Part shown: one piece after another, positions 30,304 through 46,957 of the stretch
Layout: each line of letters opens with the position of its first letter
How positions within the stretch are numbered: the first letter of the stretch is position 1
From: Spirochaetaceae bacterium
GTDB lineage: Bacteria; Spirochaetota; Spirochaetia; B11-G9
Length of the DNA stretch: 50,198 bases
Direction of reading: 5' to 3'
Assembly: GCA_015493635.1 (NCBI GenBank)
Contig: WGCU01000051.1
Location: forward strand, 1 to 50,198
Notes under the pieces: model-generated
Told to the model about the DNA's origin: nothing
What the model saw: only the letters and a program-made list of their open reading frames with translations
The model's database searches: none
Position numbers and translations under genes: made by a program

Positions 30304-33300
30304 TTACGCTGTCCAGACATCCTCAATATGAGGATATTCTTTAATTAAACTCAGTACGTTACCGGATGGCTCCAGTTTTATCTGCCCTGATGCTCTGATA
30401 ATAGTATCATTTCCTGCGGCAGGAGAATGAAGGTGAAGATACACCGCACAGTTTCCTGAGAAATCCATCAGGTATTCTCTAAAGGACACAAGATCTTCCT
30501 CCTGGCAGATATCCCTGTTTATTTTTATATGCACTTCAGATGTTTTCAGCTTTTTGAGCTTTTCCAGGGGAATTATTTCATCTACAAGGAACTTCGGATC
30601 TCCCCGGGAGAGGTCAACCTTTCCGGAAAATCCCAAAATTGCATCCTTTTGGATCAACTCCCCTTTCTCTTCCCAGATCTTGGGGAAAAATGTCAGCTCT
30701 ATCGTTCCCTTGAAATCTTCAAGCAGCACGAATGCCATGGGACGGCCTTTTTTTGTTGTGATAACCCGTGGCTCATGTACTGTTCCCAGAATGGTGTACT
30801 TTCTATCGGTTTGGATGGAATCAGGATGTGAAAGATCCAGTGATACTGCTTTTTCCCAGATTTTCCGGTATTTATCCAGAGGGTGTCCCGAAAAATAGTA
30901 TCCGAGAAGTTCTTTCTCATTTCTGAGATTGTCCATCTGAGGCCATTCTTCAACCGTTTCTATCTTTACAGGGGGTATCATGGTTTCATCATTTTCATCA
31001 AAAAGTGATGTTTGACCGAATTTTTCTCCGTCTTTCTTTTTCGTGGTATATTCAAGCATCGTATCCAGATTGTGCATGAGTGTTGCACGGCCTGTCTTGA
31101 AAGAATCAAAAACTCCGCATTTTAGTAATGATTCTATAACTTTCCTGTTTACTACTCTCAGGTCAACCTTATAGAGGAAGTCAAGAAAAGATTCAAAAGC
31201 ACCATTTTCTTCTCTGGAACGGATTATCTCGTCTACTGCGGCTTCTCCGATGTTTTTTATCCCGACAAGGCCGTAAACAATTTTTCCCTGTTCAACGGTA
31301 AAATTCTTGTCTGACAGATTGATATCCGGGGGAAGGATAGCAAGCCCCATACTCTTTGTTTCATTGATATACTGGGTCATCTTGTCGGGGTTGTTAATTT
31401 CATTTGTCAGGTTGGCAGCCATGAACTCGGCGGGATAATTTGCTTTCAGATATGCTGTTTTGTATGCGATTACTGAGTATGCAGCGGCATGGGATTTATT
31501 AAAGCCGTATCCTGCGAAGGGTTTAAGCATTTCGTAAATATCCGAAGCCAGTTTTTCACTGTATCCCTTCTCTTTTGCCCCGGCAAGGAATTCTACCTTC
31601 ATTTTCTCCATTTCTTTGACTTTTTTCTTACCCATGGCCCTGCGTAAAATATCTGCTTTGCCAAGGCTGAATCCGCCGATAATCTGAGCCACTTTCATGA
31701 CCTGTTCCTGATAGACGATAACACCGTAGGTTGGTTCCAGAACTTCTTTAAGACTGGGATCAGGGTAACGGATAGGGGTTCTTCCCCTTTTGCTGTCAAT
31801 AAACTGCGGTATATTCTGCATGGGGCCGGGGCGGTACAATGCATTTAACGCAATAAGGTCTTCTATGGAGTCAGGCTTTGCCTGCTTCAGGATTCCCTGC
31901 ATCCCTGAGCTCTCAAACTGGAAGACACAGACACTTTTCCCTTCGCCGAGGAGTTTGAATGTTTTTCTATCATATTCAGGAATAGCTTCACTGCTGAAAT
32001 CTGCTTCCCGTTTTCTGATAAGGTCTTCAGTATGTTTTATAAGGGTAAGGGTTTTAAGCCCGAGAAAGTCCATCTTTACAAGACCGCACTCTTCAAGCTG
32101 ATCCATGGTGTACTGGGTTGAAATGGATCCGGTCTTGGCATCACGGTATAGAGGAACATAATCGGTTAGTTTACTTTTCCCGATAACCACCCCCGCGGCA
32201 TGGGTTGAGGCATGCCGGGAGAGCCCTTCCAGACGTTTACCCGTATCGATCAGTTCCCGGTAAATTTCTCCTCTGCTTTCGTAGACTTTAAGTTTCGGTT
32301 CCTTCTCCAGAGCCTCTTCAATAGTTATTTTATTTTCTGAGGGAATAAGTTTTGATATCTGATCCGCCTCTGAATAGGGAATATCAAGAACCCGGGCTAC
32401 ATCACGGATAACAGCTTTTGCTTTTAATGTTCCAAAGGTAATAATCTGGCCGACTCTGTCTTTCCCGTACTTCCGGGTAACGTAATCTATTACCTCCTGG
32501 CGCCTTTCAAAACAGAAATCTATATCAAAATCAGGCATGGATATCCGTTCAGGATTAAGAAACCGTTCAAAGAGGAGTTTGTACTTCAGCGGATCAATAT
32601 CCGTAATTTTTAAGGAGTAGGCCACAATGGAGCCTGCTCCCGAGCCTCTGCCGGGGCCGACGGGAATATCATTTTCTCTGGCAAAATGAATAAAATCCCA
32701 GACAATGAGGAAGTAGCCGGTAAACTTCATACTAATGATAATATCCAGCTCATATTCTACCCGGGCTTTGATCTCTTCCGTAATAACCGGATACCGTTCT
32801 TTGAGACCTTCTTCTGTCAGCGACCGTAAATAATCATCCGGGGTCTTGAATTGAGACGGAATTTCGTAATCAGGAAGCAGCGGACCCGGAAGCTCTATTT
32901 CAAGATGACATTTTTCCGCAAGTTTTACCGTATTTTCCAGTGCTTCAGGGACATCCTTAAAGACTTCGTACATCTCTTCGCGGCTTTTCATATAGAATTC
33001 ACTGGAACTGAACTTCATTCTCTTTGTTTCATGTTTTTTACGGTTTGTTCCAATACAGATAAGAATATCCTGGGCATTTGCATCTTCTTTTGAAAGATAA
33101 TGAATATCGTTCGTTGCTATAAGAGGAATCCCTGTTTCCCGGGACAGGGAACGTATCTGCTCGTTGGCAATTTTCTGCTCAGGAATACCGTGGTCCTGAA
33201 GTTCCAGGTAGAAGTTACCGTCACCGAATATTTTGTTGTAGTAAAGTACCGCTTCTCTGGCCTCATCAATCTTGCCTTCCAGGATTTTTCTTGGAACAAT

Positions 33301-33735
33301 TCCGACAAGACAGGCCGTAGAGCAGATAAGTCCCTCGTGGTACTTTTCTATAAGTTCATTATCAATCCGAGGTTTATAGTAAAATCCCTCAGTATATGCC
33401 AGGGAAGATAGCATGAGGAGATTCCGGTACCCGGTAATATTTTTTGCAAGAAGGATAAGGTGATTATATCTGTTTCCCTTATCCAATCCGGATTTAATTT
33501 TTCTACTGGTTGAGGATACATAAAACTCACAGCCTATGACAGGATTGATATCATGGGCTTTACATTCTTTATAAAAGCGCAGGGCGCCGAACATATTCCC
33601 GTGATCAGTGATAGCGAGATGTTTCATTCCCAGAGAAACAGCTTTTTCCACCATTTTTTTTATGGGAACCGCTCCATCCAGAAGAGAGTAATCGGTATGG
33701 TTGTGCAGGTGAACAAAATCAGGTACGTGTGACAT
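30304..33735 (-). CDS. dnaE: DNA polymerase III alpha subunit (DnaE)
   Basis: The 1143-residue protein has the N-terminal PHP domain (HLHNHTDYSLLDG, AITDHGNMFG), the C-family polymerase palm with GPGRGSGAGSIVAYSL and the catalytic PDFDIDF, the fingers (YRPGPMQNIP), the KSHAAAYSVIAYKTAYLK block and, towards the end, an OB fold (YTILGTVHEPRVITT). No exonuclease insertion is present, so it is DnaE and not PolC. The gene follows the XDH-like trio by 25 bases and may share its transcript. Confidence 0.97.
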   Translation of the reverse strand: MSHVPDFVHLHNHTDYSLLDGAVPIKKMVEKAVSLGMKHLAITDHGNMFGALRFYKECKAHDINPVIGCEFYVSSTSRKIKSGLDKGNRYNHLILLAKNITGYRNLLMLSSLAYTEGFYYKPRIDNELIEKYHEGLICSTACLVGIVPRKILEGKIDEAREAVLYYNKIFGDGNFYLELQDHGIPEQKIANEQIRSLSRETGIPLIATNDIHYLSKEDANAQDILICIGTNRKKHETKRMKFSSSEFYMKSREEMYEVFKDVPEALENTVKLAEKCHLEIELPGPLLPDYEIPSQFKTPDDYLRSLTEEGLKERYPVITEEIKARVEYELDIIISMKFTGYFLIVWDFIHFARENDIPVGPGRGSGAGSIVAYSLKITDIDPLKYKLLFERFLNPERISMPDFDIDFCFERRQEVIDYVTRKYGKDRVGQIITFGTLKAKAVIRDVARVLDIPYSEADQISKLIPSENKITIEEALEKEPKLKVYESRGEIYRELIDTGKRLEGLSRHASTHAAGVVIGKSKLTDYVPLYRDAKTGSISTQYTMDQLEECGLVKMDFLGLKTLTLIKHTEDLIRKREADFSSEAIPEYDRKTFKLLGEGKSVCVFQFESSGMQGILKQAKPDSIEDLIALNALYRPGPMQNIPQFIDSKRGRTPIRYPDPSLKEVLEPTYGVIVYQEQVMKVAQIIGGFSLGKADILRRAMGKKKVKEMEKMKVEFLAGAKEKGYSEKLASDIYEMLKPFAGYGFNKSHAAAYSVIAYKTAYLKANYPAEFMAANLTNEINNPDKMTQYINETKSMGLAILPPDINLSDKNFTVEQGKIVYGLVGIKNIGEAAVDEIIRSREENGAFESFLDFLYKVDLRVVNRKVIESLLKCGVFDSFKTGRATLMHNLDTMLEYTTKKKDGEKFGQTSLFDENDETMIPPVKIETVEEWPQMDNLRNEKELLGYYFSGHPLDKYRKIWEKAVSLDLSHPDSIQTDRKYTILGTVHEPRVITTKKGRPMAFVLLEDFKGTIELTFFPKIWEEKGELIQKDAILGFSGKVDLSRGDPKFLVDEIIPLEKLKKLKTSEVHIKINRDICQEEDLVSFREYLMDFSGNCAVYLHLHSPAAGNDTIIRASGQIKLEPSGNVLSLIKEYPHIEDVWTA

Positions 33736-33760: not shown

Positions 33761-34630
33761 TCATTCTGTAAAGAGATTATAGTCTCTCAATTCATGAAGA
33801 AACCATAGTATGAACCGTATTGTTCTCTCTTTCTGAAAGGAAGTAAGTACTTCTGTCTGCTCCATGGCTTTTTTGAAATATTCAACCGCGTTATCAATTT
33901 CTTTCGGCCGGAGTTTCAGTTTCTTTTCGGTGAGATACGATTCAAAATCAATACTGCGTACAATGGTTTTCCCGATGTTTCCAACGGCAAACCGTACCTG
34001 CGAGATAAGCCCTTTGTGTGTTTCCATTAAGAGACTGAAGGAAATTGCGTTGAACGGGTCATAAAAAGGATCTCCCACCGCTGTGAAATACTGTAAATTC
34101 CATACATTGAGGGGGATACGTATACGGGTAACCACCTCGTTATCCTGAATACTGTCCTTGCCTTTTCTGGTGAAAAGCCTGTTCAGCCCCACCCATCTGC
34201 TTTTTCCGCTTTTCCGAATTTCAAGAATTGCATCCATCAGGATGAGAACACTGTACGTGTTAAGTCTTCTGCTTCTGCAGCAAAGGTTACCGCCGAGGGT
34301 TGCTCTGTTCCGGATATGCGGAGGCGCAATACTCCGTAAAGCTTCCGAGAGAGCAAAAGGGAGAACATGCTGCCCGACGTTAAGTATTTTTTTTATCGGG
34401 ACACAGGCGCCTATCTCCAGGTACCGTTCTGTACGCCGTATCTTTTTTAGTTCGCGTATTCCTGAAAGCTGGATAATATCTTTTGAAAATGACGGATGGA
34501 TGTTCTGCTGTCTCATCAGAGCCGTTCCTCCGGCCCATAGAAGGGTATCAGGGTGCTGCTGTTTTATAGAAAGGAGTTCACTTACCGATTTTGGGGCAAA
34601 AATGTTTCGTCCGGTTCTATTTTCTGCCAA
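33761..34630 (-). CDS. FAD-binding subunit of a xanthine-dehydrogenase-family enzyme
   Basis: The 289-residue protein belongs to the CoxM/XdhB family. The FAD pyrophosphate-binding AGGTALMRQQ (from AGGTDL) and IRNRATLGGNLCCRSR motifs are present. It is downstream of, and overlaps by 14 bases, the 2Fe-2S subunit gene. Together with that and the large subunit it makes a complete XDH-type set, though the large subunit is atypical. Substrate is unknown. Confidence 0.85.
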   Translation of the reverse strand: MAENRTGRNIFAPKSVSELLSIKQQHPDTLLWAGGTALMRQQNIHPSFSKDIIQLSGIRELKKIRRTERYLEIGACVPIKKILNVGQHVLPFALSEALRSIAPPHIRNRATLGGNLCCRSRRLNTYSVLILMDAILEIRKSGKSRWVGLNRLFTRKGKDSIQDNEVVTRIRIPLNVWNLQYFTAVGDPFYDPFNAISFSLLMETHKGLISQVRFAVGNIGKTIVRSIDFESYLTEKKLKLRPKEIDNAVEYFKKAMEQTEVLTSFQKERTIRFILWFLHELRDYNLFTE

Positions 34631-35099
34631 AACGTTTCCTTCTCCTGTACAGTGCTGTTTTTTTTACTACCTGTATTATAATTCTTATGTTCGTACAGGG
34701 ACATATACTTCCTCTGAACGCGTCCAGAATCTGTCCCTCATCCGGTTCGGCAAACCGCTCAAGAATGGAGTATATCGTGAGTATTGTCCCCCCCCTGCAT
34801 AAGTCACAGAGAGTGGTTCCTGTTTCCTCGAAGGCCTGCATTATATCATGGTAATCATCCGTTTTACTGAAGCCTTCAAGGGTCACAATCTCTGAAGACC
34901 TGGCCTCAAAAGCGGGTATGAGACAGGAGGCGGCAGCATCACCATTAAAGAGTATGGTGCAGCTTCTGCATTCTCCCTTATTGCAGGCAGTATGGACACT
35001 GCCTATTTTCGCGTTATCTTTAAGAATATCAGAAAGTCTTGTCTCAGAGGGAGTTTCTACATCAACGTTTCTACCGTTTAATGAAAAATTTATTTTCAT
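34617..35099 (-). CDS. 2Fe-2S subunit of a xanthine-dehydrogenase-family enzyme
   Basis: The 160-residue protein keeps all eight cluster cysteines: C-x4-C-x2-C-x11-C in CNKGECRSCTILFNGDAAAS and C, and the second cluster pairs CDLC and CPC. The usual surrounding residues are changed (CGYC to CDLC, CRCTGY to CPCTNI). So electron transfer is probably retained while the domain surface has diverged. The ATG overlaps the large-subunit stop by 4 bases. Confidence 0.85.
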   Translation of the reverse strand: MKINFSLNGRNVDVETPSETRLSDILKDNAKIGSVHTACNKGECRSCTILFNGDAAASCLIPAFEARSSEIVTLEGFSKTDDYHDIMQAFEETGTTLCDLCRGGTILTIYSILERFAEPDEGQILDAFRGSICPCTNIRIIIQVVKKTALYRRRKRFGRK

Positions 35100-37135
35100 T
35101 TTCCCTCCATGTGCGTATGAAGAACTTCGGGGGTAAGAGGAAGTGTATCAAAGTAGATTCCTGTAGCCTGGGTAACAGCTGAAATAATAGCGGACGGTAG
35201 CAGTGAACCAGGTATTCCTGATATTCCTCCGGGTGTATTTTTCCTTGTTTCTTCGATCTCTATTGAAATAAGGGGCAAATGCCGTTCCAACGGTACATTG
35301 AAACCGGTATCAAAGGTGGATGGAAGTGTTAGATCATCTTTGATGAGGGTTTCCGTGAGGGTTTCAAGAATTGAGGTTTCGAGAGCATCAACAGCTATTT
35401 TCTTATTATAAATTTTACCACTGTCAATAATAAGCCAGATACCGCGTACAAGAACTCTCAAAAAAACAGGATCAATCTCTATTTCCGCTATTGCCGCTCC
35501 CCATGAAAGAGAATGGAAAGGCAGACCCTTGAACTTTTCAGGGTCCCACCGTCTCGTTCCGGGCATACGGTAGGAACGTTTTACAACAATCGGCAGAGCA
35601 TGATGGAATCGTTGTTTTTTTATTTCAATACAGCATTTTTCCACAAGACTTGTAATAATACTGATCCCGCTTGATAGAAATGCAGGTCCCGAATTCGGCA
35701 GATTTGACGTATCTCCCTGCTGTACAATTACCGATGATGGGTCTGTTCCGAGAATAGCAGCAGCTGTTTCTTTCCATATAGCTGTAGATTGTGAACCGTA
35801 CGCGCTGCTGAGGATGGTAACAGTGTCATCCCTGTCCAATCTGACTTTTATGGAGTATGTTTCATTTTTTTCCCGTTTAATGGTTGGTCCATTACCGGTA
35901 AACCCGAATGAGAGACCAATCCCGCGGATATTTCCTTTTCCAATGGGACCCTGTTTTCTATTTTTTCTGAGTAGTTCGTATGCTGCATATTTTCTGTTAA
36001 AATCTGAATTGTCTAGAACCTTTTGAAGAAGTGTTTTTCCATGAAAATCTTTAAGAATTCCCCCGGTGGGAAGGTATGCTTTTTTACCTGGAAGAAAGGA
36101 AAGACGCCACTGCCCCGGAGTTTTCCCATAAAGCTCTGCTATTCTTGAAAAATGGGTTTCAACGGAAAAAGTACCGGCAGAAAAACTCAACCCTTTAAAA
36201 GCATTCATGGGAGGTTCACTGGTAATAATCCCCCTGCAGGTTATTTTCATATTAGGGATTATGTATGATCCGGCTGCACCAATGAGTATCTGACTTAAAA
36301 GTTCATCAGTAAAGAGAGGATAAGCACCCATATTTACCTCAATAACGGCTTTCTCTGCAAGAACCTTGCCCTTTTCATCCACAGCCGAGAGCCGGGTTAT
36401 CATTACTTCCGGCCTTTGTACCGCATACACTGCATGATCTTCTTCTCCAGGTATAAGACTGACCGGTTTTCCAGCTTTAAGCGAAAGAACGGCGGCTAAA
36501 GAAGCGTACAACGATGGTATAACAAGTTTTTCATCATAGGTGGGATTAAATTTTCCGATTTTTACCCGTACATTCTTCAGGGGGAAATTACAGACTGCCG
36601 CGACGCACCGGCGTAGTTGAAAAGGCCATTGCGTTTCGCCTTGTATCGTTGCAATACCTTTAGATACAGCAGCAATTACACCCTGAAAACTGGAGAATCC
36701 AGCCGGCTGAGAATGGACATGATATTTCCCTTCTACTGTCTGATATGCCCCGCCCAATATCTTGTCAACATTTCCTTTGGTAAAGGATTTTTCAGCAGCA
36801 ATCTGATCCTCAGTGTATTTGTTGAAACCAAGGAGTGAGTAGTCTGTTTCGTATTCAACCCTTGTCTGTCTGCAGAGCGAAAGTACCGTTTGTTTGTCCG
36901 GACCGCAGATAACCGCCAGCGGTTCACCCTTATAGGAGATTATATTTTCACAGAGCAGGGGCCGTGAGTCCTTAAAAGCGGTAAGGGTATTCCGGCCGGG
37001 GATGTCTTTATAGGTTATGCCATAATATCCTTCAGGCAGAAGCGGGAACTGTATGGACTGCAGTTTTCCCCGGGGAATTGTTGAAGCGATGATGTATGCA
37101 TCCAGTACTTTCGTACCGGGATAGTCACGAGCCAC
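35096..37135 (-). CDS. Divergent large (molybdopterin-type) subunit of an XDH-family enzyme
   Basis: The protein aligns along its length with XdhA/CoxL (LDAYIIASTIPRGKLQSIQF at the N-terminus, ETQWPFQLRRCVAAVCNFPL, and the C-terminal SAVTQATGIYFDTLPLTPEVL). However, the cofactor motif GG-x-FGGK is KFNPTYDEK, the E-x-GQG block is SAYGSQ, and GxGEPP with its catalytic glutamate is GISGIPG (residues about 637-643). The start is GTG 37135, which has AGGAG 8 bases upstream. The open frame extends 210 bases further into the aminotransferase gene but that part is not XDH-like. Length 679 is shorter than usual. Molybdenum hydroxylase activity is doubtful. Confidence 0.75.
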   Translation of the reverse strand: MARDYPGTKVLDAYIIASTIPRGKLQSIQFPLLPEGYYGITYKDIPGRNTLTAFKDSRPLLCENIISYKGEPLAVICGPDKQTVLSLCRQTRVEYETDYSLLGFNKYTEDQIAAEKSFTKGNVDKILGGAYQTVEGKYHVHSQPAGFSSFQGVIAAVSKGIATIQGETQWPFQLRRCVAAVCNFPLKNVRVKIGKFNPTYDEKLVIPSLYASLAAVLSLKAGKPVSLIPGEEDHAVYAVQRPEVMITRLSAVDEKGKVLAEKAVIEVNMGAYPLFTDELLSQILIGAAGSYIIPNMKITCRGIITSEPPMNAFKGLSFSAGTFSVETHFSRIAELYGKTPGQWRLSFLPGKKAYLPTGGILKDFHGKTLLQKVLDNSDFNRKYAAYELLRKNRKQGPIGKGNIRGIGLSFGFTGNGPTIKREKNETYSIKVRLDRDDTVTILSSAYGSQSTAIWKETAAAILGTDPSSVIVQQGDTSNLPNSGPAFLSSGISIITSLVEKCCIEIKKQRFHHALPIVVKRSYRMPGTRRWDPEKFKGLPFHSLSWGAAIAEIEIDPVFLRVLVRGIWLIIDSGKIYNKKIAVDALETSILETLTETLIKDDLTLPSTFDTGFNVPLERHLPLISIEIEETRKNTPGGISGIPGSLLPSAIISAVTQATGIYFDTLPLTPEVLHTHMEGK

Positions 37136-38312
37136 GGCCGGTGCTCCTGTAATGCGATTCCCCGATGGCACGGACAGCCGCTGCAACTCTGCTGCACTGC
37201 TCTTCGGTAAGCCCGGGATAAATAGGAAGGCTGAAGACGGTTTGGTATACATGAAGAGCATGGGGAAAGTCTTCCGGTTTAAATCCGTATTTTTTCCTGT
37301 AGTACGGCATAATGTGCAGGGGAATGTAATGAACCGATGTTCCAATACCTTTTTCTTTCATATACCGAAGAAATGTATCTCTCCCAATAGTACATTTTTC
37401 TTCTTTGAGACGGACAATATAGAGGTGCCATGCGTTAAGTTCTGAAGGGGGGGGGAGTATCAGAAAATCAAGACCGCCCAGTTCTTTTTCATAGTAAGCT
37501 GCTATCTGTCTGCGCCGGGATAGAAATGCTGCGCCTTTCTTTAGTTGTTCTCTTCCCATGGCGGCTAGAATATCCGGCATATTATATTTAAAGCCTGCTT
37601 CAACAACACGGTACTGCCAGGACGCTTTTTTCGATGTATAGCGGTCCCATATTTCCCGGTCAATACCATGAAGCCTCATAACAGCTATCCTGCCTGCAAT
37701 CTCATCGTTATCCGTAACAATCATTCCGCCTTCACCAGTGGTAATTGTTTTTGTCGCGTAGAAAGAATAAACCCCTGCGTCACCCAGGGTCCCCAGAAAT
37801 TTTCCTTTAAGGGAGAGAGGAAACGCGTGAGCGGCGTCTTCTATAACCGGAATAGTATATTTCTTTTTCAGTTTGAGAATTTCATCCATTGCCGCAGGTT
37901 TTCCCCCGATATGCACAGGAAGAATACATTTTATCTTTCGGTTTTCGGCGAGAGCGCGGGACAGGGCAGCGGGATCCATGTTGTACGTTGACAGATCGAT
38001 ATCAATAAAAACAGGATCTGCTCCAAGATACCGGATTACCTCTGCTGTCGCGGTAAAGGTGTAGGGTGTTGTAACCACCTTATCTCCGGGACCAATTCCT
38101 GCTGCTTCGAGAGCCAGATGCAGTCCGGCCGTCGCGGAATTTACAGCCAGGGCATAGCGGGCTCCGACATAATCTGCAAATTCCTGTTCAAAAGCTTTTG
38201 CTTCTTTTCCCGTTGTCAGCCATCCGCTTCGAAGAACACGGAGCACAGCCTGTTCTTCCTCTTCACCAAGAGAAGGAAGGGCAAAAGGAATAAAATCAGA
38301 TTTCCGGTTCAT
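37125..38312 (-). CDS. DegT/DnrJ/EryC1-family sugar aminotransferase
   Basis: The 395-residue protein has the PLP-dependent aminotransferase pattern of the PglE/WecE/PseC group: NSATAGLHLALEAAGIGPGD, EDAAHAFPLSLKGK with GTLGDAGVYSFYATKTITTG, where the lysine in ATK holds PLP. It should transfer an amino group to a keto-sugar nucleotide made by the upstream dehydratase. It overlaps the dehydratase gene by 17 bases and the XDH-like gene by 11 bases, so the genes are translated in series. Confidence 0.9.
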   Translation of the reverse strand: MNRKSDFIPFALPSLGEEEEQAVLRVLRSGWLTTGKEAKAFEQEFADYVGARYALAVNSATAGLHLALEAAGIGPGDKVVTTPYTFTATAEVIRYLGADPVFIDIDLSTYNMDPAALSRALAENRKIKCILPVHIGGKPAAMDEILKLKKKYTIPVIEDAAHAFPLSLKGKFLGTLGDAGVYSFYATKTITTGEGGMIVTDNDEIAGRIAVMRLHGIDREIWDRYTSKKASWQYRVVEAGFKYNMPDILAAMGREQLKKGAAFLSRRRQIAAYYEKELGGLDFLILPPPSELNAWHLYIVRLKEEKCTIGRDTFLRYMKEKGIGTSVHYIPLHIMPYYRKKYGFKPEDFPHALHVYQTVFSLPIYPGLTEEQCSRVAAAVRAIGESHYRSTGRGS

Positions 38313-39780
38313 TGTCTATCATGGGAATGGTCTTGATTATTTTTTTTAACGAAGCCCGTAAAAACCGCCGGTTTCTGTAATGGGTATTTGGTTCATCTTT
38401 TGAGAGAAAGCATACCTGATGCAGTTCTTTCAGGAGACTGTCAAGCTGGCCGTTCAGTCTGCTCCTGTTTTTCAGCTGGATAATACCCGGGTATTCGGTT
38501 TTTATAACCGTATCGTCGTCTGTCCAGAGACGTTCTGTCAGCTTTTCTCCGGGACGGAGCCCGATATAGGTAAGTTTGATTTCTTTCTGGGGTACAAATC
38601 CGTAAAACCGGATCATCTGTTCAGCAAGATCCTTTATCAGTACCGGTTCTCCCATTTCAAGGATATATAAATTACCGCCTTTTCCGACCCCTCCTGTTTT
38701 AAGAACAAGAGAGGCTGCCTCAGGGATTGTCATAAAAAACCGTTTGACCTTTTCATGAGTAATGGTAACCGGTCCTCCTTTAAGAATCTGCCGGGTAAAA
38801 AGAGGAACAATACTTCCCCGGGAGGCAAGAACATTACCGAAACGGACAACCATAAAATCAGTTTCTCCTTTATTACTTGAAAGGACAAGTTCTTCCGCAA
38901 TAAGTTTACTGGCTCCATAGATGCTTTTCGGTTCTACAGCCTTATCGGTAGATATAAAAACAAAACGTGAAACATGTGCTTCCTGTGCGGCTTCAATAAT
39001 ATTCTTTGTCCCGAAAACGTTGTTTTTCACTGCCTCCACAGGGTTTGCTTCTCCCATGGGAACATGTTTGTATGCTGCACAATGGAAAATAACATCCGCT
39101 TTCAAGCGGTTTATAATAAACTTGATAAAGTATTTATCCTGAAGTTCTCCTACAATCGGAACAATGGTAGCTGCCCCTCCTACACCTTCTTCCTGAAGAA
39201 TGGTAAGTTCCTTATTAATTTCATACACATTGTTTTCACTGTGATCGAAAAGGTACAGTCTCTCAGCGCCTCCGTACAGAAGCTGCCGCGCCAGTTCGCT
39301 TCCTATACTTCCTCCTGCCCCGGTTATGAGGACCCTCTTACCGCGGAGGTAGGTAAGACTTTCTTTAAGATTCAAACGAATAGGTTTTCTGGCCAGGAGA
39401 TCCTGCACTTTTATTTCTCTCGTCTGAATAAGATGTGCTTCCCCTTCTATTATCTGGGAAACACCGGGAAGTATCCGTATTCTTTCTATATCCGACTGTT
39501 TAAGGGCTGAATATATACGTCTCAGCTGTTCTTTTGTTGCCCGTGGGATTGCGATGATAGCTTCATCAGCTTTAGTCCGGGTTTGGATTTCCTTTATAGT
39601 GGACAGAGGACCGTATACAGGGATGCCTTCAATAGTGGTACCGATTTTTGCAGCGTCATCATCCACAAAAGCGGCAACCTCGCCAAGAATACCCTTGGAG
39701 GAAATTTCAGCTGCTATTCCTCTTCCTGCAAATCCTCCGCCGATAATGAGGATTTTATCTTTCTGTATCTTTTTCATCAT
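38296..39780 (-). CDS. FlaA1/CapD-type nucleoside-diphosphate-sugar dehydratase
   Basis: The 494-residue protein has an N-terminal CoA-binding-like Rossmann domain (LIIGGGFAGRGIAAEI) and a C-terminal SDR domain with GAGGSIGSELARQLLYGG, HCAAYKHVPMGEANP and STDKAVEPKSIYGASK. The four N-terminal membrane helices of WbpM/PglF are absent. It has Tyr in the Y-x3-K site, as in PseB/FlaA1, rather than the Met of WbpM. With the aminotransferase it would make a 4-amino-4,6-dideoxy sugar nucleotide for a surface glycan or flagellin. Confidence 0.88.
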   Translation of the reverse strand: MMKKIQKDKILIIGGGFAGRGIAAEISSKGILGEVAAFVDDDAAKIGTTIEGIPVYGPLSTIKEIQTRTKADEAIIAIPRATKEQLRRIYSALKQSDIERIRILPGVSQIIEGEAHLIQTREIKVQDLLARKPIRLNLKESLTYLRGKRVLITGAGGSIGSELARQLLYGGAERLYLFDHSENNVYEINKELTILQEEGVGGAATIVPIVGELQDKYFIKFIINRLKADVIFHCAAYKHVPMGEANPVEAVKNNVFGTKNIIEAAQEAHVSRFVFISTDKAVEPKSIYGASKLIAEELVLSSNKGETDFMVVRFGNVLASRGSIVPLFTRQILKGGPVTITHEKVKRFFMTIPEAASLVLKTGGVGKGGNLYILEMGEPVLIKDLAEQMIRFYGFVPQKEIKLTYIGLRPGEKLTERLWTDDDTVIKTEYPGIIQLKNRSRLNGQLDSLLKELHQVCFLSKDEPNTHYRNRRFLRASLKKIIKTIPMIDNEPEI

Positions 39781-40312
39781 CCTCTACTTTTTCCAGTATT
39801 TCAAAACCAAAATCCACTTTAAAAGATTCTTTATAAAGCGATAGTTTGATTTTAGCACGTTTTTTCCTTCTGTCTACCTTTAGTATTTTACCTTCAAGCC
39901 CTTTCATCGGTCCATTGACGACTCGGATACGGTTATTTTTATCAAACCAGACAGTCGATTTCTCCACAATCTCACCGTAGGACAGGAAATGCAGAAGCAG
40001 TTTTTTATCTTCACCGACTATCGGCTGAATATTTTGGTTACTCTCTAAAAACCGGATAAACCCGGAGGTTTTTTTTAAAATCCAGTAAATATCAGGGTCA
40101 AGGGTATCCTTATCAAAAAAAAGATATCCGGGAAAGATGGGAGCAATTGTTTCTTGCTGTTTTCCCCTCTTTCGGAGGGTCAGTTTCCTTTGAGGCCAGA
40201 TTATTTTTCCCCTTTTTTCCACAGGTACATGATGTACGTTAAAATTATATTCTGCAAGGCGAATATATTTTTTTTCCTGACCGGTTAGTACCTGAAAAAC
40301 ATAGAAGTTCAT
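39755..40312 (-). CDS. NusG-paralogue transcription antiterminator (LoaP/RfaH type)
   Basis: The 185-residue protein has an NGN domain (YVFQVLTGQEKKYIRLAEYN, PIFPGYLFF, GFIRFLESN) and a C-terminal KOW motif (NRIRVVNGPMKGLEGKILKV). It is a NusG paralogue, not the housekeeping nusG, since it is not next to rplK or secE. It heads a minus-strand glycan operon, the typical position of LoaP and RfaH, which let RNA polymerase read through long operons. It overlaps the next gene by 26 bases. Confidence 0.87.
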   Translation of the reverse strand: MNFYVFQVLTGQEKKYIRLAEYNFNVHHVPVEKRGKIIWPQRKLTLRKRGKQQETIAPIFPGYLFFDKDTLDPDIYWILKKTSGFIRFLESNQNIQPIVGEDKKLLLHFLSYGEIVEKSTVWFDKNNRIRVVNGPMKGLEGKILKVDRRKKRAKIKLSLYKESFKVDFGFEILEKVEDDEKDTER

Positions 40313-40399: not shown

Positions 40400-40885
40400 A
40401 TGAAAAACAAACTATTGCTTGGAATACTGCTTTTAATCCCTGCGTTGTTTATGTACGGAGAAACAATTTTCGTCTATACCGTTTCTAAGGGTACAGAAAA
40501 AACGTTAAAAAACGCTGTGCCCTATCTGGAGGACGGCGTCCTGAGTGTTCTTTTTGATGCGGGGCATATTGTTTTTAACGCATCTTCTACAGAATCTGTT
40601 AAAAAAAGAGGGCTCCCTTCCTACAAAGAACCGGAAGATTTTCTTACAGCAAAGTCCGGCGGTGCCTCATACCTCCTGGAAATAGCGATGCATTATATGG
40701 AAAAGGATAAGAAAGAAGTACCGGAATTTGCGGATTACCGGCTCTTTAACGTTATTTCAGGTAAGTTGTTGACGGATGGAAAGATACGAATTGAAAAAGA
40801 TCCCCCCGGTGAAAAAAAGTCTGATGAAGAAAAACTTACTGATATGGGACGGAATATGGTTCAGGGACTTTTAGGCTTTTTGTAA
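40400..40885 (+). CDS. Exported protein of unknown function
   Basis: The 161-residue protein begins with a signal peptide (MKNKLLLGILLLIPALFMYG) without a lipobox cysteine. The mature part contains ETIFVYTVSKGTEKTLKNAV and a conserved-looking ASYLLEIAMHYMEKD segment. It probably works in the periplasm. It precedes the SPOR-domain protein gene, which has its own promoter. I do not recognise the family. Confidence 0.65.
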   Translation: MKNKLLLGILLLIPALFMYGETIFVYTVSKGTEKTLKNAVPYLEDGVLSVLFDAGHIVFNASSTESVKKRGLPSYKEPEDFLTAKSGGASYLLEIAMHYMEKDKKEVPEFADYRLFNVISGKLLTDGKIRIEKDPPGEKKSDEEKLTDMGRNMVQGLLGFL

Positions 40886-40908
40886 TTTTTCCTAACTTCG
40901 GGTATACT
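40880..40908 (+). promoter_or_regulatory. Candidate promoter for the SPOR-protein/ligA/TylF genes
   Basis: TTGTAA (40880-40885) and TATACT (40903-40908) are separated by 17 bases, overlapping the stop region of the preceding gene. The start would be about 26 bases before the ATG at 40941. Confidence 0.5.
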
Positions 40909-40940
40909 ATTCTCCGACAATGGATACAGAGGTGTTATGT

Positions 40941-42470
40941 ATGATGAAAAGGTTATCCGGGGGTAACAGGATACTGACAGCCCTCCTTCTGATAGTATGT
41001 GTATCCGCGTTTGGTTTTGCGGATTCTTTTTGGGAAGGTTCGGTTACGACTGCGAATTATGGTGATTTACCGAATACAGGGTTCTACGGCGCATCGAATG
41101 CCTTTCCTCCTGACACCGATGTGATTGTAACCAACACAGAAAACGGGAAAAGTGTTGAAGTAAAAATTGTAAAACGTCTTGATACTGCGAATGTATTTAT
41201 AGCTCTTTCCTCTGAAGCTGGAGAAAAAATCGGTCTGACCCGTGGTAAAATGATAAACGGTTCAATATCTGTCAAAACACCTGAGAAAACCGGCAATCAA
41301 TCTGAGCTGGTGAATAGCAGAGATCCTGAAGTTAACCCTGCAGGGGGAGAAGATAAAGAATTGTCCCTCATCCAGGAGTATATAGACACTGAATTGAGTG
41401 GGAAAAGTGTGCAGAAAAAGATAGAACCATCCCCGGAAACAAACGTCCCTGAAAAAAGCCCGGAACCTGCTGTTGTTAAGAAAATGAATCAGCCTCCCAT
41501 AAAGAAAACACCTGAAAAGAATCCGGCAGAAGTATCATCCTCTTCTCCTGATGTTATCATACTGACACAGGGTGTCCCTGCCGGTTCAACGGGGAAACCT
41601 GTTCCCTTCCCTGTTCCCTTTATAGCTCAGAAAGCAATCAAGGAAAATGAACAGCCTTCTGTGTATGATTTTCCAGTTTCAATTCCGGAACTAACCGGGA
41701 AAAAAACATTCAGGGAAAATGCTTTTCCAGCCCTTTCAGAAGTAAAAACTGATACCCCCCTTGTCTTAAGTATGATTGCCCGTCCTGAAGAAAAAAAATT
41801 CACTCCTTTAAAAATGAGTCTTCCCATAGTGGCTGCGGAAAGAAAAACTCAAACGGCCGGGAAACCTGATATTATCATTGCCAGGGAGCCGAAAGCAGTA
41901 CAGCCTGCCAGGATAACGGAACCTTCTGCTCTCCCTGAAATTGCATCGGAAAGCATACCAGTAGAAACGGTTGAAACGGTAAAAGCCGTTCCGAAAAAAG
42001 AACCGGTAGTACATCCTGCGGTAGAAGCGCCGCTTCCTCCGGTTATACCCTCAAAAATGAAAACGGTAGCCATTGTACTTGAACCGGCTCAACCTAAACC
42101 TCCGGTTCCTGTTAAAACGATTAATCCTTCCGAAGAAAAACCTGAACCCTCCGCTCCTGTTTCTGAAGCAGCGAACAGACCGGCGGAAGAAGTTATAGCT
42201 CCGGGATCAACGTATACCATGACGACAAAATTGGAAAAGGGTGCGTTTTATCTTCAGCTTGGTGTGTATGATGAAGAGTTTTCTGCAAAAGATCTTGCCG
42301 TAACACTTTCGGGGCACTATCCTGTAACCGTTCTCGTTGCTTCCAAACCTGAGAAATCAAGGTACAAAGTTATGGTCGGTCCCTTGAATCAGGATGAAGG
42401 GGGTGCTCTTCTCTTCAATTTCAGGGCAAGAGGGTATAAAGATGCATTTCTAAGAAGGGGTATCAAGTAG
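40941..42470 (+). CDS. RlpA-like, proline-rich, SPOR-domain exported protein
   Basis: After a signal peptide (about residues 1-27, ending FGFA), an N-terminal double-psi beta-barrel region is suggested by TANYGDLPNTGFYGASNAF and VKRLDTANVFIALSSEAGEK, as in RlpA. A long Pro/Lys/Glu-rich linker of about 280 residues follows. The last 75 residues form a SPOR domain (AFYLQLGVYDEEFSAKDLAV, YKVMVGPLNQDEGGALLFNF), which binds denuded peptidoglycan at division sites. I chose ATG 40941 over ATG 40920, because AGAGGTG lies 8 bases upstream. Four bases separate it from ligA. Confidence 0.8.
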   Translation: MMKRLSGGNRILTALLLIVCVSAFGFADSFWEGSVTTANYGDLPNTGFYGASNAFPPDTDVIVTNTENGKSVEVKIVKRLDTANVFIALSSEAGEKIGLTRGKMINGSISVKTPEKTGNQSELVNSRDPEVNPAGGEDKELSLIQEYIDTELSGKSVQKKIEPSPETNVPEKSPEPAVVKKMNQPPIKKTPEKNPAEVSSSSPDVIILTQGVPAGSTGKPVPFPVPFIAQKAIKENEQPSVYDFPVSIPELTGKKTFRENAFPALSEVKTDTPLVLSMIARPEEKKFTPLKMSLPIVAAERKTQTAGKPDIIIAREPKAVQPARITEPSALPEIASESIPVETVETVKAVPKKEPVVHPAVEAPLPPVIPSKMKTVAIVLEPAQPKPPVPVKTINPSEEKPEPSAPVSEAANRPAEEVIAPGSTYTMTTKLEKGAFYLQLGVYDEEFSAKDLAVTLSGHYPVTVLVASKPEKSRYKVMVGPLNQDEGGALLFNFRARGYKDAFLRRGIK

Positions 42471-42474
42471 GCTT

Positions 42475-44544
42475 ATGTCAGTTGAAGACGTAAAAAAGGA
42501 GATCAGAGAACTTTCTGATCTCCTTACTTTATATCAGCATGCGTATTATGTTGAGAATGCCCCGAAAGTAAGTGATCTGGAATATGACAGATTGTATGAC
42601 AAGCTGGTAAAACTGGAGCATGAGTATCCGCAGTACCGCTTTCCGGAATCTCCTTCTTCCCGTGTAGGTTCTGATTTAAACAGTGATTTTCCGGAGGTAG
42701 AGCATACTATACCGGTGCTCAGCCTTGATAAAGCGTATTCTTCCGATGATGTATTAGACTGGATGGAGAGAACTGCCCGGAAAAGTAACAGAGACCTTAC
42801 CTTTGTCGTCGAGGAAAAAATTGATGGAGCTTCCATTGTTCTTTACTACGAGAAAGGTCTTCTTGTCCGGGGAGTAACCCGGGGGAACGGTACGGTAGGT
42901 AATGATATTACTCCCAATATACGGACAATCCGTTCGGTGCCTTTAAAACTTTCCGAACCCATAGATATAGCAGTACGGGGTGAAATTTTTCTCCCTCTGG
43001 AGAGTTTTGAAAAGATCAATACGGAAATGGATGTGCCCTACGCTAATCCGAGAAATCTTGCTGCGGGAACACTCAGACGGCAGAAAAGTTCTGAAGCGGC
43101 GCAGGTTCCTCTTGATATTTTTGTGTATGAAGGATTTCTGGCAGAGCATGTAGGGGATCATATAGAAATACTTCAGTATTTAACCCGCCTCGGGTTTAAA
43201 GTCAGCAGCAGGATCGGTGTTTTTTCATCCCGGAATAATCAGGAAAAAAACAGAAATCTTCCTGCCCTCTGGACCCGCGGGGTATTTGAGGATCTGGAAT
43301 CGTACATAAAAAGAGCTGTAGAAAGCAGAAAACAGCTCCCTTATGAAATTGACGGCCTTGTACTGAAAGTTAATGAACTGGATGTACGGGAGGCACTTGG
43401 TTATACCGGGCATCATCCCCGGTGGGCTATTGCCTACAAGTTTGTGTCACCAAAGGGAGAGACGGTAATAAAAGCAATTGATGTACAGGTCGGCAGAACT
43501 GGAAGGGTAACACCGGTCGCCAGGGTTGATGCGGTACGTATCGGCGGTTCAACTATTTCAAATGTAACACTACACAATCAGGATTATATTGATATGCTTG
43601 AGCTGGGGATAGGAGATACCGTTTCTGTTTCCCGGAGAGGTGATGTTATCCCGGCTGTTGAAGAGGTCCTGGAGAAAAATGACAGAGGGAACCCTGTCTG
43701 GAAGATGCCCCTTATCTGTCCTTCCTGCGGAACTCCTCTTGTACGGATTGGGTCTCATCATTTCTGCCGTAACCCTAAATGTCCGGCTCAAATTAAGGGG
43801 AGGCTTTACCATTTTGTAGGTAGAGATCAGATGGATATAGAGAATTTCGGTCCCGAAACGGTTGATTTTCTTCTAGACAACGGTTTTATTCGGGATATTC
43901 CGGATCTCTATTCCTTTAACTATGATAACCTAAAGGATTTTCCCGGATTCGGAGAGAAAAAAATTGAACTTATGAAGAAGGGTATTGAGAAAAGTAAGAA
44001 GATGCCCTTCAGCAGAGTTCTTCCCTCATTAGGTATTCCGGAAGTAGGCAAAAAAGCTGCTTCTCTTCTCATAAATGCGGGTTTCAGGGATATAGATACG
44101 CTTCTTGCAGCTGCGGACAGGGGTAATAGTGAAGTTCTCACTGAAGTGAAAGGTATTGGAGAAAAAACAGCCGAAATTATAATCCGTGAGTTTTCAAATC
44201 CGGCCTTTCGTTCCATGATAGCAGCTCTCAAAGAAAAGGGGCTTTCATTTTCTGAAGCGGAGGATACTGCTGCTGATAAATATCCGCAAACGTTTTCCGG
44301 GCAGGTATGGTGTGTCACAGGAAGTTTTAAGAACTTTAAACCGAGGTCTCTGGCAGCGGATGAAATTGAGAAGAGGGGCGGCAGGACAGTTTCTGCGGTA
44401 ACAGGAAAGACAACACACCTTCTTGCAGGATCCGGCGGCGGGAGTAAGCTGTCAAAAGCAGCATCGCTGGCTATTCCGGTTGTTTCCGAAGAGGTATTTA
44501 TCAAGATGCTCAGAAATAGAGAGGGGGACAGCAATGGAAACTGA
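42475..44544 (+). CDS. ligA: NAD-dependent DNA ligase
   Basis: The 689-residue protein has the full LigA order: Ia domain (YHAYYVEN-like YQHAYYVENAPKVSDLEYD), the adenylation lysine Lys115 in VEEKIDGAS, the OB fold (TGRVTPVARVDAVRIGGSTI), the four-cysteine zinc finger (CPSCG, CRNPKCP), HhH motifs and a C-terminal BRCT domain (VTGSFKNFKPRSLAADEIEK). It seals nicks in replication and repair. The TylF-type gene starts inside its last 11 bases. Confidence 0.97.
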   Translation: MSVEDVKKEIRELSDLLTLYQHAYYVENAPKVSDLEYDRLYDKLVKLEHEYPQYRFPESPSSRVGSDLNSDFPEVEHTIPVLSLDKAYSSDDVLDWMERTARKSNRDLTFVVEEKIDGASIVLYYEKGLLVRGVTRGNGTVGNDITPNIRTIRSVPLKLSEPIDIAVRGEIFLPLESFEKINTEMDVPYANPRNLAAGTLRRQKSSEAAQVPLDIFVYEGFLAEHVGDHIEILQYLTRLGFKVSSRIGVFSSRNNQEKNRNLPALWTRGVFEDLESYIKRAVESRKQLPYEIDGLVLKVNELDVREALGYTGHHPRWAIAYKFVSPKGETVIKAIDVQVGRTGRVTPVARVDAVRIGGSTISNVTLHNQDYIDMLELGIGDTVSVSRRGDVIPAVEEVLEKNDRGNPVWKMPLICPSCGTPLVRIGSHHFCRNPKCPAQIKGRLYHFVGRDQMDIENFGPETVDFLLDNGFIRDIPDLYSFNYDNLKDFPGFGEKKIELMKKGIEKSKKMPFSRVLPSLGIPEVGKKAASLLINAGFRDIDTLLAAADRGNSEVLTEVKGIGEKTAEIIIREFSNPAFRSMIAALKEKGLSFSEAEDTAADKYPQTFSGQVWCVTGSFKNFKPRSLAADEIEKRGGRTVSAVTGKTTHLLAGSGGGSKLSKAASLAIPVVSEEVFIKMLRNREGDSNGN

Positions 44545-45265
44545 ACAAGCTGTCGGAAAATTAAAAGAGGAAGGGTGGGGGATTATACCGCCTCAGCAGT
44601 ATTGTATTGATATGGAAGATTCTTTTAAAACTCTGTGGGACATTATTAAACCATATACGATGATCTCCATTGAGCGGGGGTATACGCTTTACAAAAGTGT
44701 TGAATATATTGTAAAAAAAAAGATTCCCGGTGATTTTGTTGAATGCGGTGTATGGAAGGGCGGTTCATGTCTTCTTATGGCACTGACTCTTATGCAGATG
44801 GATGCTGTGGACAGGAATATTTATCTGTACGATACATTCACAGGAATGAGTGAGCCGACTGATGAAGATGTTATTGCATGGAATGGGAAACATGTGCGTG
44901 AAAAATGGGAACGGGACGACTTTAAGTCCTGGGCAGTGAGCAGAGAAAGGGTATACAGAAATCTCGTTTCCGCAGGAGTTAATCAGGATATGCTCCGCTT
45001 CGTTGAAGGTGATGTGTTGGAAACCCTCTCTACTACTGTTCCTGATAAAATAGCTCTTCTGCGTCTGGATACAGACTGGTATGCTTCGACAGCAAAGGAA
45101 CTCAAGGTTCTGTACCCCCTTCTGTCAACAGGAGGTGTTCTGGTTATTGATGATTACGGTCATTTTGAAGGAGCAAAGAAAGCTGTGGATGACTACTTCG
45201 AACATGATCCCATCCTGTTGACGAGGGTTGATTATACGGGCCGTCAGGGGATCAAGATCAATTGA
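44534..45265 (+). CDS. TylF/MycF-type O-methyltransferase
   Basis: The 243-residue protein matches the macrocin-O-methyltransferase family (PF05711): GDFVECGVWKGGSCLLMALT with the SAM-binding glycine block, YLYDTFTGMSEPT, and ALLRLDTDWYASTAKELKVL with VLVIDDYGHFEGAKKAVDDY, which carries the metal-binding aspartates. In spirochaetes such enzymes may modify surface glycans. ATG 44534 is preceded by AGAGGGGG; a longer upstream reading (from 44423) lies inside ligA and is rejected. The gene ends 8 bases past the convergent PEGA-protein stop. Confidence 0.85.
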   Translation: METEQAVGKLKEEGWGIIPPQQYCIDMEDSFKTLWDIIKPYTMISIERGYTLYKSVEYIVKKKIPGDFVECGVWKGGSCLLMALTLMQMDAVDRNIYLYDTFTGMSEPTDEDVIAWNGKHVREKWERDDFKSWAVSRERVYRNLVSAGVNQDMLRFVEGDVLETLSTTVPDKIALLRLDTDWYASTAKELKVLYPLLSTGGVLVIDDYGHFEGAKKAVDDYFEHDPILLTRVDYTGRQGIKIN

Positions 45266-46886
45266 TAAAGCCTACGCCTCCTCCCGCGTTCAGATAGTAC
45301 CCTCTGTCCGGATCGAAAGCACCTGTTAGATACCCTGAGAGGATAATTCCCGTATCGGGGAGAATCCAGTTTACTTCCCATCCTGCAGATACAGGGTAGT
45401 CCATTGAAAAACCCTCATTAAAAGGAAGTGTTCTCACTGAAGCGGAAACAGCAGTCCAGACCGGCCCTGCATCAAGCAAAATTCCTCCCCGGGCATACCC
45501 CCAGGCATATATTCCCAAAGGAGAAGTTTCATTTACGGATGATACCTGAAAAGGTGAAACAGTCAGTTCAGGGGTGAAAAAGAGGGAAAAGGCGCCAAAG
45601 GTGATTCCCGAAGGAATACCTAACGTAAAACCGGTAAAATTATGCATCGTGTCAAGAGATGTTCCAAAAAGGTACGTTCCCTTAACAAGGGCTGATAACC
45701 CGAAAGAAACAGTACCTTTTGTTTTTATAATTTTGTTTTTTGCCGCAAGAGAGATGAAATAGACAGTATCAGCAGGGGCCTGTATGATAATACCTCCGGA
45801 AATATCAGTTTCCAGTTTTTCGGCCGGTACTGCCCTGAAAGACACAGCGGAAGGGAAACGGTAGCCGGAGGTATCTGCGTGTCCCAGACTGCTTAATAAA
45901 AACTGAAAGCTTCCCCGGGGAAGTATATCCGGAGTGGGTGTGAAAAGGGTTCCCGAGACCCCTGAAAAAACATTCCGTGCTTTAATAATAAACGACTGGT
46001 CAATGGTGATGAAAGCTGTTTTACGGTCATGCGCTGTCCCGTCTTCACTTTCTCCGCTCACTATAACGGTGTATGTACCGTCTTCGAGTTTTTTTCCACT
46101 GCTATCCGTACCGTTCCAGGTGAAACGCTGATTCCAGTTGTCGAAATGCCGGAAAGAATGCACCAGTACCGTGGAATGTGACGGTGATAGGATGGAAAGT
46201 TTACCTCTCCCATACGAGGAAACAGTAAAGGTAATACTGCTCTGACCGAGTCCGGAGGGGTTCCCGGGGTTAAGGATACTGCGTGAAACAGAGAGTTCTG
46301 AAAGGGTAAATGGCGCCGGCAGAAGGTTGATAAAGAGTCTTGTTGTGTCTTTGTTTCTGATTGTTACAGAGGTAGTATAGGGAATATATCCAAAGAGCCG
46401 GGCTTCTATCTGATATGTTCCTACGGGAAGTTCATTCACCCCCCTCTGAAGGGGTGCCCCATTACTTGTTATTTCTGCATGGGGAGGTACTGCTTCCAGG
46501 TAGAGATATCCTGTAATCTGTTTGAGTGTGATATCTATTCCCCGTTTGTCTCCTTCTGTATAGTCAATCCACCGTGTTTCTTTATGATATCCTTCCTGCT
46601 TGACTGTTAACCTGTATTGTCCTGTTTTCAGGTTCAGACTTAGCGGCGTTACTCCCATAAATTCACCGTCAATATAGACATTACTCCCTGTCGGGTCACT
46701 GGTAACCGTTAGACCGTCTGCTGTGTCATCTGTATTGCTGGAAGAGGATGATGTCCATGTTTTGGATTGTCCAGCCGGCTCTGCTGCTGATTTTTTAACA
46801 ACATCTTTAAATAGGGTTCCTCCTGAAGTAGCACAGCCGGATAAAATTATCGCAATGAAGAGAAAAGATACTGTGAAATATTTCAT
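45258..46886 (-). CDS. PEGA-domain lipoprotein with C-terminal barrel-like domain
   Basis: The signal peptide ends in the lipobox LSGC, so it is a lipoprotein. Two to three PEGA domains follow (TVTSDPTGSNVYIDGEFMGV, LYLEAVPPHAEITSNG, ARLFGYIPYTTSVTIRN), then a FlgD-like Ig fold (FTWNGTDSSGKKLEDGTYTV). The last 200 residues are rich in short beta strands with alternating small and aromatic residues and end GGGVGFIN, like an outer-membrane barrel. Start ATG 46886 gives the signal peptide directly; an open frame runs 8 codons further to 46910. It may anchor to the envelope and display the Ig fold outwards. Function unknown. Confidence 0.75.
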   Translation of the reverse strand: MKYFTVSFLFIAIILSGCATSGGTLFKDVVKKSAAEPAGQSKTWTSSSSSNTDDTADGLTVTSDPTGSNVYIDGEFMGVTPLSLNLKTGQYRLTVKQEGYHKETRWIDYTEGDKRGIDITLKQITGYLYLEAVPPHAEITSNGAPLQRGVNELPVGTYQIEARLFGYIPYTTSVTIRNKDTTRLFINLLPAPFTLSELSVSRSILNPGNPSGLGQSSITFTVSSYGRGKLSILSPSHSTVLVHSFRHFDNWNQRFTWNGTDSSGKKLEDGTYTVIVSGESEDGTAHDRKTAFITIDQSFIIKARNVFSGVSGTLFTPTPDILPRGSFQFLLSSLGHADTSGYRFPSAVSFRAVPAEKLETDISGGIIIQAPADTVYFISLAAKNKIIKTKGTVSFGLSALVKGTYLFGTSLDTMHNFTGFTLGIPSGITFGAFSLFFTPELTVSPFQVSSVNETSPLGIYAWGYARGGILLDAGPVWTAVSASVRTLPFNEGFSMDYPVSAGWEVNWILPDTGIILSGYLTGAFDPDRGYYLNAGGGVGFIN

Positions 46887-46957
46887 ACTCATACTCTTAA
46901 GTATTATCACAAAAATTTAAAAATCAACAGTTTTTTTAATTGTGCCGATAGAAAAGT

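Follow-up and report, generated by a model that had tools for sequence, protein, structure and literature searches.

A three-subunit complex with the fold of xanthine dehydrogenase (XDH) has very probably been repurposed without Moco in the Spirochaetia. It is near-universal in the Treponemataceae, apparently including T. pallidum, is found in many other members of the class, and would represent a functionally new branch within the XDH superfamily, carried under 'xanthine dehydrogenase' annotations. What stands out is that, throughout the class, selection has kept a complex of this fold that lacks its molybdenum site. The sequence evidence consists of gene order, motif loss, co-occurrence and purifying selection; the trio should not be classed with the molybdenum hydroxylases, because the cofactor motifs were tested for and are missing.

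Gene order in the window and across the class

The window, the whole stretch of DNA that was analysed (50,198 nucleotides), carries the trio at the end of a run of overlapping genes, listed here in the order of transcription together with the next gene downstream:

39755..40312, minus strand: LoaP-family NusG paralogue, 185 aa (NF033641, 147.1 bits, cut-off 125)
38296..39780, minus strand: CapD/PglF-like NDP-sugar 4,6-dehydratase, 494 aa (PF02719, 361.7 bits)
37125..38312, minus strand: DegT/PseC/ArnB-like sugar aminotransferase, 395 aa (PF01041, 424 bits)
35096..37135, minus strand: XdhL, predicted XDH-fold large subunit without molybdopterin site, 679 aa, GTG start (PF02738/PF20256/PF01315)
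34617..35099, minus strand: XdhS, 2x[2Fe-2S] subunit, 160 aa (PF01799/PF00111)
33761..34630, minus strand: XdhF, FAD-binding subunit, 289 aa, TTG start (PF00941, 132 bits)
30304..33735, minus strand: dnaE, downstream neighbour outside the overlapping unit, after a 25 bp gap behind XdhF

Successive genes overlap by 26 nt (LoaP/CapD), 17 nt (CapD/DegT), 11 nt (DegT/XdhL), 4 nt (XdhL/XdhS, as ATGA) and 14 nt (XdhS/XdhF), and the GTG start of XdhL at 37135 is backed by orthologues. The sequence-only reading had described six overlapping or nearly overlapping genes from 40312 to 33761, namely a NusG paralogue, a dehydratase, an aminotransferase and three XDH-type subunits. All six ORFs are present, each matches the expected family, and the overlaps range over 4-26 nt. 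That reading had also placed the locus at 34617-40312; its text rightly counted the FAD subunit, whereas the span leaves out the gene encoding it. The NusG paralogue can be named as LoaP from its NF033641 score (147 bits against 125), a separate housekeeping NusG being encoded elsewhere in the window genome (G000:C26). Promoter and terminator scans of the window operon gave results no better than those for shuffled sequences.

Across the class, 77 orthologous loci from about 30 families were compared, and adjacency was scored where enough flank was available. Adjacency is kept for XdhF in 74/74 loci, DegT in 68/74, CapD in 63/72, LoaP in 48/71 and dnaE in 33/71. All eight genomes of the window's own family show this gene order, up to the ends of their contigs; the named relatives of this family are uncultured spirochaete MAGs. 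The same junctions overlap throughout the class, at CapD/DegT in 44 of 50 loci, XdhL/XdhS in 49 of 56, XdhS/XdhF in 43 of 54 and DegT/XdhL in 28 of 59; an XdhF/dnaE overlap was found in none of 24 loci. Because the same junctions overlap across the class, the arrangement in the window is neither due to chance nor unique to one genome. An operon-like unit behind a NusG paralogue had been proposed from the window and is supported here. The check suggested with it, conservation of the neighbourhood in other spirochaetes, shows the order kept class-wide and excludes a gene order unique to this genome, which had been named as an observation that would speak against the proposal.

Family names were inferred by us (f24 Treponemataceae, f20 Borreliaceae, f9 Sphaerochaetaceae, f53 Brachyspiraceae). 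A single contig of 1,139,633 bp (G081), the carrier of which is apparently T. pallidum, has CapD, DegT, XdhL, XdhS and XdhF contiguous, and in another genome (G165) the trio and the sugar genes lie on separate contigs. About ten same-strand genes separate LoaP-CapD from DegT and the trio in a T. denticola-like genome (L191:2768-16798 in G185), where CapD is 15 kb off and the DegT-XdhL adjacency is still kept. The genes inserted between CapD and DegT in this genome are not sugar genes; they encode S41 peptidases and a C39 ABC exporter with HlyD. The apparent absence of XdhS from several GC-rich loci was an ORF-picking artefact.

Upstream of LoaP, a divergent gene pair (40400-42470, plus strand) encodes a 161-aa protein without family and a 516-aa protein with a SPOR domain, and is kept next to the operon across many families. 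Next to it lie genes for an NAD-dependent DNA ligase (42475-44544), a TylF-like methyltransferase (44423-45265) and a PEGA-domain protein (45258-46910); the ligase and the methyltransferase are again found beside the operon in several families.

Fold, cofactor sites and selection in the trio

XdhL was compared with canonical paralogues encoded in other gene clusters of the same genomes. The motifs GGxFGG(K), RGFGxPQ and (M)GQG are lost in all 77 XdhL orthologues examined (45 and 32 more), whereas these motifs are intact in the canonical paralogues aligned with them. The catalytic-Glu motif, GAKGxGE in canonical enzymes, reads GGISGIPGS in the window and the catalytic Glu is gone; some other lineages retain GxGE or GIGE at this position, which counts against a Moco-free reading. 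About 50 columns near-fixed in canonical XDHs are lost in the XdhL family, and the family has fixed residues of its own: W170 (94%), R381 (99%), R509 (92%) and L514-P515 (96-97%). W170 directly follows a Gln that we take to match Gln767 of bovine xanthine oxidase, which faces molybdenum.

The AlphaFold2 model of the window XdhL (pLDDT 88.7, pTM 0.90) has XDH/AOR structures as its top Foldseek matches, with TM scores mostly of 0.82-0.88 at 16-20% identity (0.86 against 1jro_B). Both the a/b hammerhead and the MoCoBD domains of the large-subunit fold were recovered, PF01315 falling just below its own cut-off. Judged by its motifs and predicted structure, XdhL keeps the XDH fold yet has lost the molybdopterin site.

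The scores of a class-wide XdhL profile fail to split degenerate from canonical proteins (the latter at roughly 515-585 bits), and loci were sorted by motif instead; the f9, f48 and f53 loci examined in this manner carry canonical XDH only. A family-restricted profile run against the genome contigs matched the window's own family only, and the distribution of XdhL was therefore taken from the wider genome search. The window's own genome also encodes a canonical XDH trio in which the Moco motifs are intact (L038:8959-17434, G000:C32); this trio sits in a larger cluster with a further XDH-type protein of 965 aa.

All eight Cys are present in the window XdhS, and both [2Fe-2S] ligand sets are intact. 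The Gln of the QCGFC motif is found in 8/8 canonical XdhS proteins versus 0/67 family members and is lost in the window too (residue before C98). All eight Cys are kept in 53 of the 67 family members (61 full sets less the 8 canonical ones) and at least one is lost in 14. Ligand loss with the gene intact affects the N-terminal cluster at L151 (G081), and most or all ligands of both clusters at L104 (G033) and L106 (G008); at L151 and L104 the ligands are eroded though CapD and DegT are kept. In columns compared with canonical FAD subunits, the window XdhF has AGGT and RNxATLGGN and has lost the SPxxD segment; AGGT and TxGGN persist in the family, in which the canonical SPxxD segment is lost. 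An electron relay would be possible in the window complex because both cluster ligand sets are intact there, but it would not be a universally conserved feature of the family.

XdhL has dN/dS values of 0.05-0.16 in close pairs, and one close pair gave 0.06 for XdhL, 0.06 for XdhS and 0.05 for XdhF (two of six loci, in opposite orientation, were left out). Such ratios are those of genes under purifying selection, not of pseudogenes. In a FastTree phylogeny the degenerate XdhL proteins form one clade with the canonical XDHs outside. The tree path between the window and G001 amounts to 0.79 changes per column for XdhL; between the canonical paralogues of these two genomes it is 0.26.

Hosts, sugar genes and flagellin

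XdhL occurs in 142 of 145 Treponemataceae-like genomes, including all 106 that are at least 90% complete. By contrast with this carriage, moaA is found in 17/145 of these genomes (11/106 near-complete ones, leaving 95/106 without it) and moaC in 18/145 (12/106). Given this rarity of moaA and moaC, most Treponemataceae-like carriers would be unable to make molybdopterin by the known pathway. The window genome has a partial MoaA-like match plus canonical XDHs. This match (G000:C67:10010-10591), like similar ones in many Spirochaetia, covers positions 1-198 of 336 and stays below the family cut-off; such matches are mostly in ORFs of about 265-290 aa, though the window genome has canonical XDHs. 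They possibly represent a MoaA that is truncated or split, or else a different radical-SAM protein.

The best solved relatives of CapD are WlaL (PglF) entries (5bjy and others), and its orthologues share 53-76% identity with the window protein. DegT carries the SFYATKTITTGEGG motif, including the position of the PLP lysine, and has ArnB (1mdo) as solved relative. The curated PseB and PseC cut-offs are not reached (CapD 188 of 408 bits, DegT 380 of 423 bits). A NeuB/PseI-type synthase is encoded in the window genome at G000:C77, unlinked to the operon. NeuB was found in 11/11 genomes with CapD, DegT and flagellin (ten with DegT adjoining the trio) versus 0/11 without the pair (eight of the f3/f4/f18 set, two f9 and one f20), an association that spans 22 genomes and about three independent absences. 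Because the pair co-occurs with NeuB, CapD and DegT look like the first steps of nonulosonic-acid synthesis, a sugar type that we infer and that is plausibly used on flagellin. The flagellin glycan of T. denticola is reportedly a pseudaminic-acid-type sugar (Kurniyati, 2017). The link of CapD and DegT to NeuB and flagellin makes them candidate first genes for this glycan. T. denticola flagellins carry a 450.2-Da glycan that filament assembly requires (as cited in PMC9481697).

Flagellin is present in 99 of 108 trio-positive genomes of a class sample. The nine without it all belong to f3, f4 and f18, and no CapD orthologue or full-length DegT orthologue was found in them; G009 has a 195-aa DegT fragment at a contig edge (46% identity). 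The trio-only lineages group as a single clade in the XdhL tree, placed among carriers of all six genes and sister to the window's family. Given this placement, the loss of the sugar module was probably secondary and went along with that of flagellin. As the trio persists in flagellin-negative lineages without NeuB and CapD, its action would not be obligately on the CapD/DegT sugar, and these genomes show that it can be kept without that pathway.

Function of the trio

The reading we favour, and consider likely, is that an XDH-fold complex has been repurposed to work Moco-free and is expressed together with a flagellin-sugar module. LoaP, CapD and DegT would form the sugar module: LoaP would drive read-through of the operon, CapD would yield a 4-keto-6-deoxy NDP-amino sugar and DegT would then aminate the product, the nonulosonic-acid pathway being completed by the unlinked NeuB and plausibly used on flagellin. 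The second module, XdhL-XdhS-XdhF, would no longer bind molybdopterin, its pocket motifs being dismantled and the near-invariant W170 standing beside the Gln that presumably faces molybdenum in xanthine oxidase. In the window, where both 2Fe-2S ligand sets and the FAD phosphate-binding motifs remain, the complex may bind FAD and relay electrons between the flavin and some ligand or partner. All three proteins persist in several lineages that have lost cluster ligands, the T. pallidum-like one among them, so the conserved core role would not lie in molybdenum catalysis; binding or scaffolding is the probable one. We lean towards such a core, with electron relay kept in many lineages. That DegT and XdhL stay adjacent points to some functional link with the sugar, perhaps lost secondarily in decoupled lineages.

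The sequence-only reading had rightly recognized nucleotide-sugar genes in the unit. Its further proposal, XDH-type redox chemistry on a glycan precursor, is not supported, given the loss of the molybdenum site in all orthologues examined, the lack of moaA and moaC in most Treponemataceae-like genomes, and the persistence of the trio in the nine flagellin-negative genomes. A related possibility, which we regard as rather unlikely, is a dedicated sugar-pathway enzyme whose FAD/2Fe-2S electrons oxidize or reduce the CapD/DegT product or a derivative with no molybdenum. It fits the DegT-XdhL adjacency in 68/74 loci, with frequent overlap, kept even with CapD 15 kb away; however, the trio is retained in f3/f4/f18 genomes that have neither NeuB nor a CapD orthologue, lies on a different contig from the sugar genes in G165, and has eroded cluster ligands in several lineages with both CapD and DegT, L151 and L104 included.

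A molybdenum hydroxylase with an unusual mode of cofactor binding is very improbable: every pterin-binding motif is gone and the 95 near-complete Treponemataceae-like genomes without moaA all carry XdhL, a result with which moaC agrees, although the overall fold and subunit set are retained and, outside the Treponemataceae, 31 of 46 well-assembled trio-positive genomes have a MoaA-like match (15 have none). There is equally little to recommend the idea that the trio is a decaying relic which its neighbours carry along. XdhL does diverge fast (22-36% identity between families, versus mostly 48-67% for CapD and DegT) and cofactor ligands of the trio have been lost, but each of the three genes has a dN/dS of about 0.06 in a close pair, XdhL ORFs are kept in 142/145 genomes including one of 1.14 Mb, new family-specific invariant residues have appeared and the trio outlives the sugar genes.

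The trio resembles the xanthine oxidase family (R. capsulatus XDH 1jro, D. gigas AOR 1sij, quinoline 2-oxidoreductase 1t3q) in its L/S/F three-subunit set, full large-subunit fold (TM 0.82-0.88), eight Cys in most XdhS proteins and FAD phosphate-binding motifs. It differs in lacking the Moco-binding loops, the QCGFC Gln of XdhS and, in the window, the catalytic Glu as well, and in that moaA and moaC are missing from most of its Treponemataceae-like hosts. TPASS_0079 and TPASS_0081 are listed as xanthine dehydrogenase (PMC4403809), and our literature search on a Moco-less XDH-fold family found no report beyond automatic annotation. For the trio this annotation is probably wrong, and loss of the molybdenum site under such names points to systematic misannotation. 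The defining metal site is gone class-wide, yet all three subunits are kept under purifying selection, and are kept even in a pathogen genome of 1.14 Mb; this suggests a function that has gone unrecognised.

The sugar genes recall the PglF/PseB and PseC initiation pair, as an SDR dehydratase adjoins a DegT aminotransferase and co-occurs with NeuB; unlike that pair, they score below the curated PseB/PseC cut-offs, lie apart from neuB and are linked to an XDH-fold trio. LoaP resembles the antiterminators of B. velezensis/amyloliquefaciens in passing the NF033641 cut-off and heading the operon it would serve, which here is a short sugar/XDH-fold unit of 6-7 genes, unlike the antibiotic clusters of those antiterminators.
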